A stretch of DNA of 64,000 nucleotides, taken from the NCBI GenBank assembly GCA_030539395.1, contig JAUNSC010000007.1, positions 1 to 64,000 on the forward strand. The letters are read 5' to 3'. Shown one piece after another: positions 26,832 to 52,005 of this stretch. Source of the DNA: Eubacteriales bacterium (GTDB lineage: Bacteria > Bacillota > Clostridia > Lachnospirales > Lachnospiraceae). Under the pieces are notes generated by a model. That model was not told the DNA's origin. It ran no database searches and saw nothing but the letters and a program-made list of their open reading frames with translations. Every line of letters starts with the position of its first letter. Within the stretch, counting starts at the first letter, position 1. A program made the position numbers and the translations under genes.

Positions 26832-26847
26832 ATTATGCTGTACATAC

Positions 26848-26883
26848 AGAAATGGAGCTGCGGCCGTTCGCAGCTCCATTTCT
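26848..26883. terminator. Bidirectional terminator between deoR-type gene and GH32
   Basis: AGAAATGGAGCTGCG (26848-26862) pairs perfectly with CGCAGCTCCATTTCT (26869-26883) around a 6-nt loop, between two convergent stop codons. U tracts are short on both sides. Confidence 0.7.
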
Positions 26884-28362
26884 CTAAAATTTCAATTCAT
26901 ATTTTTCCACATCAATCTGCGCGGTTCCTTCTGCCCGGAACGTGATTTTATCCGCATCCAGCGGAGTAAACAATGCCAGTGTACCGGCTTTTTCTCCGTC
27001 ATTTACAAATACCTCCAGACTATACCGATCAAGAATAAATCTGAGTTTTAGCCCTCCGTTCTTTGTCTGAACCGGAATATCTCTGCTGTGCACAATGTCA
27101 TACAAATATCCGGAAAAGTTTCTGTCAAGATTCAGAATACCCTTCTTCGGCATAAAGCTCACAGATGTATGGTAAACGTCATCTGCTGCCACGTTGATGA
27201 TCAGTTTTTTTAATTGGCTGATATCCCGAACCGTTACAGTCATATCCACGGTCCGGCCCTCTACATCTTCAAAAATACGTTCCTGTGCATCGACAGTTAC
27301 ACTTTCATGCAGAATCCTTTCACCCCGATAGTTCAAAATCTCACGGACCGGTGTCTGTATCAGCTTTCCATCCCGGATTTGAAGTTCTCTGGGCACTGTC
27401 ATCTGGCCAAAATATTTCACTCCGGGCGGCACGAATTTAGAATTTGACCACGCCTGCATCCATCCAATCATCACACGCCGCCCATCCGGTGTCAAAAGAC
27501 TCTGGGGCGCATAAAAATCGATACCGCAATCTATAGGCTGCAGATTTTCACCGGTAAACCGGTATGCTTTTTTATCATAATCTCCAATCAGAGCCAGTGT
27601 ATTGTGACCGACATGGAAATCCCTTCCATCCGGAAGCATTGCCATAGGGCTGACTAAAAGAGCCTGTTTCCCATCCAGTTCAAAAAAGTCAGGACATTCC
27701 CACATCCCTCCAAGTTTTGCACTGCTTTTAGCCAGAATACTGCAAAATTCCCAGGCCAGTGCATCCTGACTCCTGTACAGGGCAATCTGCCCGTTACCGT
27801 CTGCATCCATGCCTGCCGCAACTGCAAAAAATGTTCCGTCATCCTCCTGCCAGATTTTCGGATCACGAAAATCACAGGTGCTGCTTCCTTTCGGGAGTGT
27901 ATCCGCCTTAATCACCGGATTGCCTTCATATTTTTCGTAATTTACACCGTCTCCAAATGCAAGACACTGAGTCTGTGCTCCGGATTCACCGCTGAGGTCT
28001 GATGATTTCTGTACACCGGTATACATTAATAAGTGCCTGCCATCGGCCAGTTCCAGCGCACTTCCGGAAAAACATCCAAAATTATCATATTCCTGGTCCG
28101 GGGCCATAGCAATCGGAAGCCGTTTCCATGAAAGCATATCGCTGCTCTTTGCATGACCCCAATGCATTGGCCCCCAAATGTTGGAATAAGGATGATACTG
28201 ATAAAACAAATGATATTCGCCCTTATAGTATGAAAAACCATTGGGATCGTTGATCCACCCGCAGCCGCCTGTAAGGTGAAAAGCCGGGCGCTCTATATCA
28301 CGGATTCGGCTGATATGTTCTTCTTCAAAACCTCTGGCCTCTTTTAACTGTTTACTGATCAT
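26884..28362 (-). CDS. GH32 beta-fructofuranosidase / sucrose-6-phosphate hydrolase-type
   Basis: 492 aa. The five-blade propeller has the nucleophile motif GWINDPNGFSYYKG near residue 35, FRDPKIW (transition-state Asp) and the acid/base GGMWECPDFFEL; a C-terminal beta-sandwich follows. There is no signal peptide, so it cleaves sucrose or short fructans in the cytoplasm after import by the ABC system of this operon. It is the last gene of the operon and starts 20 nt after the LacI gene. Confidence 0.93.
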   Translation of the reverse strand: MISKQLKEARGFEEEHISRIRDIERPAFHLTGGCGWINDPNGFSYYKGEYHLFYQYHPYSNIWGPMHWGHAKSSDMLSWKRLPIAMAPDQEYDNFGCFSGSALELADGRHLLMYTGVQKSSDLSGESGAQTQCLAFGDGVNYEKYEGNPVIKADTLPKGSSTCDFRDPKIWQEDDGTFFAVAAGMDADGNGQIALYRSQDALAWEFCSILAKSSAKLGGMWECPDFFELDGKQALLVSPMAMLPDGRDFHVGHNTLALIGDYDKKAYRFTGENLQPIDCGIDFYAPQSLLTPDGRRVMIGWMQAWSNSKFVPPGVKYFGQMTVPRELQIRDGKLIQTPVREILNYRGERILHESVTVDAQERIFEDVEGRTVDMTVTVRDISQLKKLIINVAADDVYHTSVSFMPKKGILNLDRNFSGYLYDIVHSRDIPVQTKNGGLKLRFILDRYSLEVFVNDGEKAGTLALFTPLDADKITFRAEGTAQIDVEKYELKF

Positions 28363-47041: not shown

Positions 47042-47055
47042 TCTCTCAAAAACAA

Positions 47056-47077
47056 CGCCCGCTCTAATTAGCGGGCG
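47056..47077 (-). terminator. Leader hairpin: terminator or attenuator
   Basis: CGCCCGCT (47056-47063) pairs perfectly with AGCGGGCG (47070-47077), loop of 6; on the minus strand followed by TTGTTTTTG. It lies downstream of a near-consensus promoter and upstream of the MacB-type gene, so it may be an attenuator as well as the end of the upstream peptidase operon. Confidence 0.6.
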
Positions 47078-47091
47078 CTAACTACTACAAT

Positions 47092-47147: not shown

Positions 47148-48077
47148 TTACTCTGATGGAACAATCTTCAAAACAGCAGTATTTGCATACGTCATCGGAT
47201 GATTGTGAACGAAGAAGATAACGCCGTCCACAGGAGATAACAGTTCTTCCCTGCAGGAACCGTCATAGGGGTTTATGATCTGTGCCAGTTTTTGGCCCTT
47301 TTCCACCCGTTGGTTTACATGAATTTTACTTTGAAAAATACCGGCTCTTGAAGGCCGTACAACTGCCAGTTCACTGTCATCGATGATCTGTGAACGATAA
47401 CCTTCCGGGACTTTTTTCAAAATCAATCCTTCTTTATTCATGAAACACATCACTGCATTTACCATATTTTCTGCCGCATCTTCATCGATAGACTCTGTTG
47501 TGGTGGAATACAGACTGAAAGCCTGTGTATCCCAAATCTGCCAGTTATAATTCAATGTCGTCGTATCATAGGGTTTGGGCTCTCTGGTGACTATGTAGGG
47601 AAGTCCAAATTCTTCTGCTTTTTCAATGTGTTCAAATCCTGTTTTCATCAGCCGCACATGGGGTGCAAAATTTCCCGTCATATAAAAGGAAGGAAATTGT
47701 ATACCATAACGGTAACCGGTAACCGCTTCAAAAACACCTCCTGCAATCCGCTGCGTTGTCTCCCCCAATAAATATCCCGGGAACATACGGTTTATATCAG
47801 TATTGTCTGTAGGCCAGAATCTCTTCTCAATATTCATGGAATAAGGATTCACTGATGGAATCACCATAATTTCATGGCCTTCACAGATACGGCCTGCCTC
47901 CTCCAGTTCTTTCAGTTTTTTTACAATCTGTGAGCAGATAAAAATCTGCTGATATTCATTACCGCGCGTATTTCCAAGAATGCAGAGAGATTTTTCACCC
48001 TGACCGAAAGAAAACCCTGTCACCCGGAAATTATCACGGTACAGCGATTCCAGTTCATATACTACCTTCTTCTCCAT
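47148..48077 (-). CDS. AstE/AspA-like M14-family protein, zinc ligands lost (pseudoenzyme)
   Basis: 309 aa. It aligns by eye with its upstream neighbour along the full length, including the C-terminal barrel-like domain (VRPSRAGIFQSKIHVNQRVE; LLSPVDGVIFFVHNHPMTYA). Where the neighbour has HGDE, this protein has RGNE (His to Arg); where the neighbour has the second ligand DIHASN, it has GIQFPS (His to Gln). Two of three zinc ligands are therefore absent and it should not be an active peptidase or deacylase. Its start overlaps the neighbour's stop by 23 nt, so a heterodimer with the active paralogue is likely (inference). Confidence 0.82.
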   Translation of the reverse strand: MEKKVVYELESLYRDNFRVTGFSFGQGEKSLCILGNTRGNEYQQIFICSQIVKKLKELEEAGRICEGHEIMVIPSVNPYSMNIEKRFWPTDNTDINRMFPGYLLGETTQRIAGGVFEAVTGYRYGIQFPSFYMTGNFAPHVRLMKTGFEHIEKAEEFGLPYIVTREPKPYDTTTLNYNWQIWDTQAFSLYSTTTESIDEDAAENMVNAVMCFMNKEGLILKKVPEGYRSQIIDDSELAVVRPSRAGIFQSKIHVNQRVEKGQKLAQIINPYDGSCREELLSPVDGVIFFVHNHPMTYANTAVLKIVPSE

Positions 48078-49026
48078 CTTCCTCTGCAGTCCTTTCTTCC
48101 ATTTTTAAAATGCGTGCCATCAGGGATCCCTCCTCAACCACCGGATATTCTCTGATCGTAAACAGCAGTCCTTCCTCTTCAGTGACCACATCCTCCAACA
48201 CAATTCCATTCAGCGGATCCACTACTTTCCCGATAGACTGTCCCTTTTTGACATAGGTATTATGCCGGGTTTCCTGTATGAAAATACCCGAGCGGGAAGC
48301 ATTCAAAAATAAAACATCTTCCACCTGTTCAGATATTATGGGTTCCCTCGCTTTTACCGTCTCGCCGGTCCAAATCCCCAGTTTTTTCATTACATTCAGA
48401 ATGCCTTCCACCATCTGATTGCCAATTCTTTTTGTAATCCTCATTCCTACACCCATCTCCACCACCAGCGTTGGTGTCCCGCGGCTGTTCAGACTGCAGG
48501 CAAGTGTTGATTCCAGCACAGTGCTTGTGCCATGGACCCAGATAAAATCCACGTTGCACTCTTTTGCCAGAGGAACAAGTTTTTCTTTATGCAGTTCATT
48601 AATCCGAATCTGCGGCAATTCCGTAAGATAAATATTGCTGGCATGGATATCCAGGCACAGATCACTTCCCTCCAGATCACGGACTATTTCCATTGCCAGA
48701 TATTCTGTCATGGAACCGTCCATGCTGCCGGGAAAGGTTCTGTTCATGTCCAGATCAAATCCCGGAATTCCCCGTGTAATGGAATCTATGCCAAGAGGAT
48801 TCATAGCCGGATAAATGTCCACTGTACCTGTAAGGTACTCTTTGTGTTCCTGAATCCTTCTGGCAAGTTCATAACATACATATTGCCCTTCCAGTTCATC
48901 TCCATGGATTCCTGTGACAATACTGATTCTTTTTTTATTGTCCGGACCCTCCGGCAAAAATCGTTTTTTCCGGATTTCCAGACATTCATCTACCGGCATC
49001 TCTATGGACGCAAATGTTTCCACCAT
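48055..49026 (-). CDS. AstE/AspA-like M14-family zinc metallopeptidase
   Basis: 323 aa. The zinc site is intact: VTGIHGDELEGQYVCYELAR (His and Glu), DLCLDIHASNIYLTE (His), and a later TLVVEMGVGMRI Glu. The MNPLGIDSITRG and DMNRTFPGSMDG blocks are typical of succinylglutamate desuccinylase/aspartoacylase-type amidohydrolases. A C-terminal beta domain (SRSGIFIQETRHNTYVKKGQ) follows. It may trim an amino-acid or peptide tag made by the ATP-grasp ligase of the same operon. It starts 7 nt after the transglutaminase stop. Confidence 0.87.
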   Translation of the reverse strand: MVETFASIEMPVDECLEIRKKRFLPEGPDNKKRISIVTGIHGDELEGQYVCYELARRIQEHKEYLTGTVDIYPAMNPLGIDSITRGIPGFDLDMNRTFPGSMDGSMTEYLAMEIVRDLEGSDLCLDIHASNIYLTELPQIRINELHKEKLVPLAKECNVDFIWVHGTSTVLESTLACSLNSRGTPTLVVEMGVGMRITKRIGNQMVEGILNVMKKLGIWTGETVKAREPIISEQVEDVLFLNASRSGIFIQETRHNTYVKKGQSIGKVVDPLNGIVLEDVVTEEEGLLFTIREYPVVEEGSLMARILKMEERTAEEDGEEGSI

Positions 49027-49033
49027 AATTTGT

Positions 49034-49828
49034 TCATTCCTCTCTGATTTCTTCTACCAGGACTTCTATCTCCTGCTTCTGCTGTGCAAGCCCCGTCATA
49101 ATGCCCTGGTTAATCACGCAATCCTGGTAATCTCTGCCCCCTGAGATTTTGATGTGCTGGTCATTTACCATTAACATATTTGTAGGATCCAGTGCAATCC
49201 AATACGGTTCATCATATACTTCTACCCAGGCATGGCTCGCGCCCTCACCAATCAGCATTCCTACCACATAGCGTGCCGGAATCCCCTCCATGCGGCACAG
49301 GGAAATCAATATGTGTGCATAATCCTGACATACACCCTTCCCCAAAACCATAGCTTCTTCCGCTGTTGTATGAATTGTCGTAACTCCCTGTACATATTGA
49401 AAGTTTTTATACAACGTCTCCATCATAAGGACCGCCTTCTGCAGATTTGTCTTCCCCTTCAGAGAAGGAATCCGACTGTGGAAATCTCTGATGGCATCTC
49501 CGGGATGGGTATAGACAGTCTGATAACGATAACGCCCCATCCGGTAATCTTCCCCTGCATACTCTGCATCCTTCAGCCCTACCTGAGCAATCCCCCGTAC
49601 TTCTGCCATAAACAGATCATGCGGTGATTTACAGTTGCCATATATACAATAGTTCCCAAAGGAATCCGTACTGCTGCTTAAATTTTCTTTTGGAAGAACA
49701 GAAATCTCCATTTGTTTCATCTTCTGCCGCTCATTGTTACAGGGAACGCACCGCAGGGTAAACCGATGGTCTTTTACGGGACTGGAAAATCGAATCTTTA
49801 GCATATAGTAGAAGGACAGCTCCTTCAT
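49034..49828 (-). CDS. Transglutaminase-like cysteine protease domain protein
   Basis: 264 aa. N-terminal beta domain (bacterial transglutaminase-like N, with FTLRCVPCN), then the catalytic core: GKGVCQDYAHILISLCRMEG (Cys), GEGASHAWVEVYDEPYWIAL (His) and DPTNMLM (Asp). Proteins of this type occur with alpha-E and circularly permuted ATP-grasp proteins; they may cut or cross-link peptides. No signal peptide, so it is cytoplasmic. It starts after GGGAGGGAATTAG, 37 nt from the alpha-E gene. Confidence 0.9.
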   Translation of the reverse strand: MKELSFYYMLKIRFSSPVKDHRFTLRCVPCNNERQKMKQMEISVLPKENLSSSTDSFGNYCIYGNCKSPHDLFMAEVRGIAQVGLKDAEYAGEDYRMGRYRYQTVYTHPGDAIRDFHSRIPSLKGKTNLQKAVLMMETLYKNFQYVQGVTTIHTTAEEAMVLGKGVCQDYAHILISLCRMEGIPARYVVGMLIGEGASHAWVEVYDEPYWIALDPTNMLMVNDQHIKISGGRDYQDCVINQGIMTGLAQQKQEIEVLVEEIREE

Positions 49829-49865
49829 ACTAATTCCCTCCCCTCAAAAGAATATATTTTGAAAA

Positions 49866-50543
49866 TCAGTTCTGCTGCATGATCAGCGATTCTATTTCCA
49901 CGATAATTCCGTTATAATTAATGTCCTGCTCCTGTATCATTTCTTTCAGCCGTTCCAGGTGTTCCTTCACATAGACCACACTGCTGCGGTCAATTCTGCC
50001 CACCAGCCTGGACACTTCCCGAATCATATCTTCTCTCGGCTGCCTGAGCCTTGCGTACAGATCAATACGCTCCACACGTTTACCAACTTTTATGATATTA
50101 CGGATATCTTCGCTTTCAATCTCATCATCTGCAATTCCCCAGAAAGCCAGCAGATTATCACGTATTTTCTGCATCTCAAGAAGCGGTGCCCTGCTCTCTC
50201 CTGCTTTCTTCATATCATAGATCGCCAGCTGCACATAAGAAAGCGTATCACTCCCGATAAGCTCCCGCAGAACGATTGCATTATCATACGCCCTGTTAAG
50301 GTTGCTGACAATGGAATTTTCATCCTCAGTATCAAATGCATACCTCTTCTGGAAATCCTCATTTGATTCATAAATATTGGGAATCTCCAGATCCTGGCAA
50401 AACTGAGCATACCCTCCGCCCGGAAGCCCGTCCAGCATTCTGTCAGCAGCTGCATCAAAAAGCCGTATTGTTGTATAAACACGTTCTGTATACCTGCCCA
50501 GCCAAAAAAGCCTGTCTGTCTGTTCTATTGAGATAACACCCAT
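49866..50543 (-). CDS. Alpha-E domain protein (DUF403)
   Basis: 225 aa, all-helical: begins ISIEQTDRLFWLGRYTERVY, with NAIVLRELIGSDTLSYVQLA and GKRVERIDLYARLRQPRED. Alpha-E proteins are always next to circularly permuted ATP-grasp genes and are thought to act as partner or scaffold. This one is shorter than the common ~310-residue form. Its start overlaps the ATP-grasp stop by 19 nt. Confidence 0.88.
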   Translation of the reverse strand: MGVISIEQTDRLFWLGRYTERVYTTIRLFDAAADRMLDGLPGGGYAQFCQDLEIPNIYESNEDFQKRYAFDTEDENSIVSNLNRAYDNAIVLRELIGSDTLSYVQLAIYDMKKAGESRAPLLEMQKIRDNLLAFWGIADDEIESEDIRNIIKVGKRVERIDLYARLRQPREDMIREVSRLVGRIDRSSVVYVKEHLERLKEMIQEQDINYNGIIVEIESLIMQQN

Positions 50544-51844
50544 GTGTCTTTAAATCCTCCTCCCTGTGATGAATTTACAATAAAAGAATCCGGATTTCTG
50601 GAAAAGCGTGTCAGGCCGCTCTTCCACACTACTGTTTCTTTTCCTGACAGAACAAATGCACGCAAATCTGCTTTTCGCGGCACGATGTGTCCTTCATCCA
50701 TAATATCAATATCCAGGAAATCTATGACTTCCTGTGCGATAAAACGCCGGGGTTCTTTTTTCAAAAGCCTGATAAAGCTCTCTTTCTGCGCTTTTGTCAT
50801 GCTGCTTCCAAATACCACGCCATAACCGCCTGCCTCTGCCACATCTTTCAGCACCAGATCATCAAAATGCTCCAGTACGTATGCCATGTCCTTCTCATAA
50901 AACGGCAGATAGGTAGGAGCATTGTTTAAAACAGGCTCCTCTCCCATATAATAACGTATCATTGACGGTACAAAATAATAGATACCCTTATCATCCCCGA
51001 TCCCGTTGCCCGGAGCATTCATAAGAGCCACATTTCCTTTTCGGTAAACATCAAAAATATGGGGGATTCCAATCACAGATTCAGGAAGAAAATTCATGGG
51101 ATCCAGATATTCGTCTGAAATTCTGCGGTACACAGCTCCAACCTTTTCTTTCTTGCCGTTGCTCTTTATAAAATATAGATGATCATCTTCTACAACAAGC
51201 TCATTACCATTCACCAGCTGCACACCCGTTTTTTCTGCCAGATAAGAATGCTCAAAGTACGCGGCATTATATCTTCCCGGTGTAAGAAGCACGATCAGCC
51301 CGTCTACCTTTACATCATCCATGGTTTTTCTGAGGAGGGCCGCATAATCCCGGTTATCCGCAATATGATTCTCTCTGAATGTGACCGGGCTGCTTCTTCT
51401 GCAGATTTTTCTGGCTATCATCGGATAGGAAGCCCCGGAAGGCACCCGAAGGTTATCCTCCAATATGTACCACTCTTTATTTTTCCCCTGCACCAGATCG
51501 ATACCGGAAATATGGGAATATACCTCTTTTGGCGGCATGATTCCCTCACACTGAACAAGATATCCGCTGGAAGCGTAAATGAATTCCTCAGGTACTACTT
51601 TATCACGGATAATTTTTTTATCATGATAAATATCCTTCAGAAAAAAGTTAAGCGCCTGTACTCGCTGTCTCAGTCCCTTTTCCAGATAATCAAACTCCGT
51701 CTTATCAATGATTCTTGGAATAGCGTCAAACGGAAATAACTGTTCTTTAAAGGTATTATTTTTATATATTCCAAATTTCACACCATATCTTGCAAGCTGT
51801 TCATTGACCGTATCCGTGTGTTCAAGTAAATCTAACCGGTTCAT
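50525..51844 (-). CDS. Circularly permuted type 2 ATP-grasp protein
   Basis: 439 aa from ATG 51844 (GGAAAGGAAGTGG before it; the TTG just upstream is less likely). Conserved blocks: EFIYASSGYLVQCEGIMPPK, WYILEDNLRVPSGASYPMIA, NAPGNGIGDDKGIYYFVPSM, VLKDVAEAGGYGVVFG and the C-terminal KADLRAFVLSGKETVVWKSG then TRFSRNPDSFIVNSSQGGGF. The family is predicted to ligate amino acids or peptides to an unknown acceptor (ATP-grasp/alpha-E/transglutaminase systems described by Iyer and Aravind). First gene of the five-gene operon. Confidence 0.92.
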   Translation of the reverse strand: MNRLDLLEHTDTVNEQLARYGVKFGIYKNNTFKEQLFPFDAIPRIIDKTEFDYLEKGLRQRVQALNFFLKDIYHDKKIIRDKVVPEEFIYASSGYLVQCEGIMPPKEVYSHISGIDLVQGKNKEWYILEDNLRVPSGASYPMIARKICRRSSPVTFRENHIADNRDYAALLRKTMDDVKVDGLIVLLTPGRYNAAYFEHSYLAEKTGVQLVNGNELVVEDDHLYFIKSNGKKEKVGAVYRRISDEYLDPMNFLPESVIGIPHIFDVYRKGNVALMNAPGNGIGDDKGIYYFVPSMIRYYMGEEPVLNNAPTYLPFYEKDMAYVLEHFDDLVLKDVAEAGGYGVVFGSSMTKAQKESFIRLLKKEPRRFIAQEVIDFLDIDIMDEGHIVPRKADLRAFVLSGKETVVWKSGLTRFSRNPDSFIVNSSQGGGFKDTWVLSQ

Positions 51845-51886
51845 CAAAATACCACTTCCTTTCCGTTGCTGTGCGATAGATTTTTT

Positions 51887-51976: not shown

Positions 51977-52005
51977 ATTCTATTATACCCTTTTTAAATT
52001 GTCAA
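51977..52005 (-). promoter_or_regulatory. Probable promoter of the ATP-grasp operon
   Basis: Minus strand: -35 TTGACA (52000-52005), 17-bp spacer, -10 TAGAAT (51977-51982). A TATAAT is also present but only 12 bp from the -35. Confidence 0.6.

Follow-up and report, generated by a model that had tools for sequence, protein, structure and literature searches.

An AstE/AspA-type protein pair with one complete and one altered zinc site regularly accompanies ATP-grasp/alpha-E/transglutaminase genes in the taxonomic order of a Lachnospiraceae bacterium

The window analyzed here is a 64,000-nucleotide (nt) stretch of contig JAUNSC010000007.1 (positions 1 to 64,000) from a Eubacteriales bacterium of the Lachnospiraceae. 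Five open reading frames on its minus strand, at 47148-51847, encode a circularly permuted (CP) ATP-grasp protein, an alpha-E protein, a transglutaminase-like protein and two AstE/AspA-type proteins, hereafter A1 and A2, in that order. While the original prediction regarded the A1/A2 pair as an unusual accessory at ATP-grasp/alpha-E loci, in this taxonomic order the pair is the rule, and its presence at alpha-E loci is regular and sharper than first noted. The alpha-E gene was found in 17 of 246 genomes of the order, spread over five families, and all five genes were matched, in the same arrangement, in each of the 17. This sample was chosen by alpha-E alone and is therefore not biased towards the pair. 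Two of the 17 genomes (G000 and G060) had been seen before the order was sampled, and one locus (L178) has a split transglutaminase frame. Locus L187 has a gap of about 1.5 kb between the transglutaminase gene and A1 (L187:6974-8500).

Within the family, alpha-E was present in 14 of 120 genomes and the pair lay on the same contig in 12 of these, including G037, which has a broken alpha-E frame and a short ATP-grasp frame, and G036, which has a split transglutaminase frame. In the remaining two the operon halves are found on different contigs; a contig end falls inside the transglutaminase gene of G076, and the two halves of G114 are on separate contigs. Among the loci fetched by A2 (80 of 570 confirmed), a set that is biased as it was chosen by the presence of A2, all five genes were found in 69 of 80. 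Of the remaining 11, eight are truncated by a contig start, L094 has A2 and an alpha-E stub without A1, L125 is described below, and L146 contains a run of N; an apparent transglutaminase-A1 fusion in L146 was rejected because the frame crosses this run. The titles of the named records among these relatives are mostly Lachnospiraceae. Four titles (L099, L122, L126 and L128, given as Gastranaerophilales, Bacteroidales, Bacteroides and Muribaculaceae) look wrong, and the operons concerned are close to Lachnospiraceae ones. In L156 (8561-10462) alpha-E and transglutaminase are read as one frame of 633 amino acids (aa), and there is no AstE pair. A phage origin of the pair was considered and is unsupported, as five records of a phage collection, listed there with no annotation, matched and the one examined (L172, MT835471) is marked UNVERIFIED; the relatives in such records are probably bacterial DNA.

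The two proteins of the pair differ in their active sites. We take the zinc and catalytic roles of the His-x-x-Glu motif, the second His, the catalytic Glu and the Asn-Arg motif to be those of aspartoacylase, and the zinc-ligand and catalytic Glu positions in A1 and A2 were found by alignment. A1 (48055-49026, minus strand; AstE_AspA_cat 89.9 bits) carries the motifs HGDE, DMNR, DIH and VVEM, i.e., every residue expected of an AstE/AspA zinc amidohydrolase. A2 (47148-48077, minus strand; AstE_AspA_cat 44.4 bits) carries RGNE, DINR and AFSLY; its zinc His residues are replaced by Arg and Pro and its catalytic Glu by Tyr, so that of the expected residues it retains just the HxxE Glu and the Asn-Arg. 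The pairing of an active and a zinc-less AstE-like protein is thus borne out at motif level. So is the reported overlap of 23 nt between their frames (48055-48077), as the frame of A1 extends to 48055 and that of A2 begins at 48077.

These site patterns are widely kept in alignments of 115 A1 and 116 A2 sequences, which count five genomes twice. The first zinc His of A1 is present in 110 of 115 sequences (the rest being two gaps, two Tyr and one Gln), and the second His and catalytic Glu are present in all 115. Of the 116 A2 sequences, 114 have Arg in place of the first zinc His, 114 have Tyr in place of the catalytic Glu, and 114 have another residue at the second His (Thr in 58, Ala in 45, Pro in 5, Ser in 4 and Val in 2). 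The HxxE Glu and the Asn are invariant, and the Arg after Asn is kept in 115. The same pattern holds throughout the 15 loci that the order sample added. A2 retains the catalytic and C-terminal domains of the AstE/DoeB type, and structure models predict the full two-domain fold for both proteins. In L149 (6669-8204) the A2 frame runs on into a methyltransferase-like C-terminal part, giving 511 aa in total.

The two A2 exceptions, L152 and L153, retain His, Glu and His but have Met instead of the catalytic Glu. They come from one family of another class, which we guess to be heliobacteria-like, and share the gene order of the window operon; the pair is present in 6 of 9 genomes of this family. 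Since these sequences keep the ligands but have Met, catalysis may have been lost before zinc in A2, an order of events that builds on two sequences and assumes that this branch shows the older state.

A2 is clearly under purifying selection, comparable to that on A1. Moreover, partial correlations of tree distances, calculated for 68 complete loci with the other three proteins held fixed, were 0.72 for ATP-grasp/alpha-E and 0.68 for A1/A2, compared to at most 0.23 for the other eight protein pairs. Adjacency alone does not explain these two values, because the neighbors alpha-E/transglutaminase and transglutaminase/A1 reach only 0.18 and 0.21. When ATP-grasp is the only protein held fixed, the transglutaminase has a correlation of 0.50 with A1 and with A2 alike. 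The tree distances therefore resolve two modules, i.e., ATP-grasp with alpha-E and A1 with A2.

Based on these sequence patterns, we tentatively propose that the operon encodes a ligase module together with a heteromeric A1-A2 amidohydrolase that has a pseudoenzyme partner and acts on a small amide, a reading that we consider plausible but somewhat short of probable. The pairing itself has good support. ATP-grasp and alpha-E would form an amide on a small substrate resembling an amino acid, and A1 would hold zinc and cut. Although TldD is not of the M14/AstE fold, A2 might serve A1 as TldE serves TldD, i.e., as a pseudoenzyme partner for substrate binding or gating. The transglutaminase-like protein may work between the modules as a cysteine amidase or transferase. 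The product would most likely be a small amide or isopeptide for nitrogen economy rather than a protein tag. A more detailed version, which is possible but doubtful, is that A2 is an ancient and conserved pseudoenzyme that lost its site in two steps (Glu, then zinc), acquired a new metal-free pocket of conserved Arg and Tyr and reads or gates the ligase-made amide, and that A1-A2 was later freed and re-used beside purL.

Several observations weigh against this proposal. Strong A2 matches were found in 27 of the 120 family genomes (three weaker matches were left out), and 13 of the 27 have neither alpha-E nor an intact CP ATP-grasp; twelve of these 13 hold the pair and one (G061) A2 only. The pair can therefore persist in the absence of the ligases, and the substrates of the hydrolase cannot be limited to the product of its own operon. 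L125 similarly has A2 with an N-terminally shortened A1 and no ligase. Block exchange of neighboring genes could contribute partly to the tree-distance coupling. In the related Yersinia Anbu operon, pull-downs gave no specific Anbu complex according to passages of PMC6376114, and the nitrogen evidence for the three-gene set comes from organisms other than the carriers of the pair. By plain pairwise identity in 76 loci A2 is less conserved than A1 (mean 66.0% vs 71.3%), and A2 identity exceeds that of A1 in only 350 of 2850 locus pairs. As A2 seems more conserved than A1 by dN/dS, mean column identity and tree length, the measures disagree, and the claim that A2 is the more conserved protein was dropped. 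Our estimate for the proposal is unchanged by this, since it needs A2 to be conserved and not more conserved than A1.

The ligase-free pairs have a recurrent genomic context. Among 17 such loci, purL is the next gene on the same strand in 10, e.g., in L051 (5611-11328), where the pair is directly upstream, and in L056, where purL is a contig-end part only. It lies within 4 kb in two more and was not seen at the other five, one of which (L057) is cut there by a contig end. RNA families at 8 of the 17 loci were rRNA and tRNA only. The joint tree groups the ligase-free loci in one clade (16 of 17 loci, support 0.94), as does the A2 tree (0.79), but a tree of A1 only does not; this analysis covered 52 rows that include 17 of the 80 A2-fetched loci. 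Because the A1 tree disagrees, shared descent is only likely. In L067, purL lies next to what remains of A2 and ATP-grasp, and in L041 a full operon is found four genes away from purL; both contexts fit a descent of the ligase-free pairs from the full operon by loss. On contig 24 of G094 (26843-27055), adjoining remnants of ATP-grasp (39 positions) and A2 are apparently a collapsed operon, and this genome also keeps a pair by purL. A second pair elsewhere was found in 5 of the 14 alpha-E genomes of the family, and these five pairs are among the 17 loci. In L052, L056 and L060, the A1 protein encoded beside purL has another residue at the first zinc His (Tyr, Tyr and Gln, respectively), so an active member may be missing from some pairs of the purL type.

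A2 might instead be a stand-alone protein that employs the former AstE pocket, free of metal, for ligand binding, sensing or a new catalysis, co-expressed with A1 but outside any A1 complex, which we regard as unlikely though worth weighing. A2 has invariants of its own (R38, E41, N96, R97, Q127, S130, T174-L175-N176, W179-Q180, F187-S188 and Y190) that hold across 20 aligned sequences including ligase-free loci, which argues against random decay. Further out some of these residues vary, as Q127 is replaced by His at 5 and W179 by Leu at 1 of the 15 order-sample loci, and Y190 is Met in both heliobacteria-like loci. Two loci (L066 and L094) keep A2 without A1, which supports an independent role and weighs against the A1-A2 heteromer. 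However, this state is rare (2 of 131 A2-bearing loci), and L094 may represent decay because an alpha-E stub adjoins; the tree distances also place A1/A2 among the two pairs with strong coupling.

That the pair and the ligase set are neighbors in one operon without a common pathway appears improbable, considering their co-inheritance in five families in a fixed order that recurs in two heliobacteria-like genomes. On the other hand, 12 of the 27 strong-A2 genomes of the family have the pair but no alpha-E, and ligases also occur without it. In the phylum sample (398 genomes), alpha-E was found in nine, six of which have the pair and three of which do not. No pair was found within 4.5 kb of the eight plasmid ATP-grasp loci fetched (8 of the 117 matching records), seven of which are from other phyla and one from Paenibacillus. 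The originally predicted tie between the AstE pair and the ligase set, which was to fall if the two were not co-inherited, thus stands for alpha-E genomes of the order and, in 12 of 14, the family. It does not extend to those three phylum genomes or to the strong-A2 genomes of the family that lack alpha-E.

The original prediction also suggested that the operon makes and trims a small peptide or amino-acid tag; we give little weight to such a tag on proteins. Protein tagging or peptide making has been proposed for ATP-grasp/alpha-E/transglutaminase loci (Iyer et al. 2009, as cited in passages of PMC5666114 and PMC6376114). CphZ-type enzymes act on dipeptides according to a passage of PMC10206079, and the pair is kept where no intact ligase of the CP ATP-grasp kind is found; both argue against a tag. 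A protein tag is unsupported, as DoeB and CphZ are the nearest relatives of A1 for which both a structure and an activity are known, and no tag candidate was sought. DoeB is an N-acetyl-diaminobutanoate deacetylase and CphZ a beta-Asp-Arg hydrolase, and both DoeB and AstE act on small N-acyl amino acids. Cyanophycin was considered as a product from the CphZ match, and no search for a synthetase was made.

The other features of the window locus agree with the gene set and order originally described, as each frame has a Pfam match above its curated cut-off. The ATP-grasp protein (50525-51847, minus strand; 440 aa) is of the circularly permuted type 2 (CP_ATPgrasp_2 451 bits), and 3n6x is the sole solved chain matched by sequence (E 9e-113). 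Its frame overlaps that of alpha-E (49866-50543, minus strand; 225 aa) by 19 nt. The latter is a short form that matches Alpha-E at 86.8 bits against a cut-off of 20.8, though over positions 7-166 of the 294-position profile only. The transglutaminase-like protein (49034-49828, minus strand; Transglut_core 75.3 bits) has the triad C167, H199 and D214, and this Cys-His-Asp triad is kept in 82 of 82 aligned sequences of >200 aa and >90 bits, shorter or split frames being left out. Downstream of the operon are an ABC transporter ATPase and permease, and upstream a MATE protein (Pfam). A promoter-like site ahead of the operon (TTGACA-17-TAGAAT, 11/12 matches; 51977-52005, minus strand) is suggestive only, as the region has 14 sites of this kind, a number within the chance range (shuffled 11.7, sd 3.9). 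The same holds for a terminator-like stem-loop of 11 pairs with a T tail after A2 (47053-47080, minus strand), with 5 stems vs 4.0 when shuffled (sd 2.1). No RNA family was above threshold in the window. The source genome, which is 94% complete, contains a single alpha-E gene and three genes of the AstE type; the third of these lies on a separate contig (L162, G000 contig 77) and is above the Pfam cut-off and weakly A1-like (36 bits).

The function of the ATP-grasp/alpha-E/transglutaminase set is unproven in the literature passages available. A hydrolase pair at every alpha-E locus of the order sample provides a handle on the reverse reaction, as the substrate of A1-A2, once found, would hint at the product of the ligase. 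In addition, the pairing of an active and a dead enzyme may represent stepwise enzyme death with conservation. According to passages of PMC5666114 and PMC6376114, the set goes back to Iyer et al. (2009) and forms the Anbu operon together with Anbu, the functional hypotheses being unconfirmed, and Anbu is expressed under nitrogen starvation. The ATP-grasp protein of the Anbu operon is described as releasing phosphate and Anbu as having no peptidase activity (passages of PMC6376114). A connection of the three-gene set with nitrogen and urea is drawn in passages from a Burkholderia NtrC study (PMC5491218) and a study of marine metagenomes (PMC3597751), and AstE-type enzymes are mentioned as beta-Asp-Arg/Lys dipeptidases in a passage of PMC10206079. 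No paper describing the ATP-grasp set with an AstE pair appeared in the full-text passages, which did not cover Iyer et al. (2009) or the CphZ paper.

Compared to known systems, the operon resembles the Anbu operon in its first three genes, their order and the intact transglutaminase triad, but differs in having the AstE/AspA pair in place of the Anbu gene and a short form of alpha-E; a Pfam scan of the five genes and five neighbors detected no Anbu-type Ntn hydrolase. The likeness to DoeB and CphZ lies in the two-domain fold predicted by the A1 and A2 models and in the zinc and catalytic residues of A1, while A2 is without the site. Both proteins score far below the NCBIfam equivalog cut-off for DoeB (65.4 and 24.9 bits vs 402.7), and the literature passages contained no active/inactive AstE/AspA pair. 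The heterodimeric metalloprotease TldD/TldE, a precedent described in passages of PMC5810440, likewise pairs a metal-bearing homologue with a metal-less one, each of them conserved. It belongs to another protein family, and by hypothesis A1-A2 may work in a similar way.

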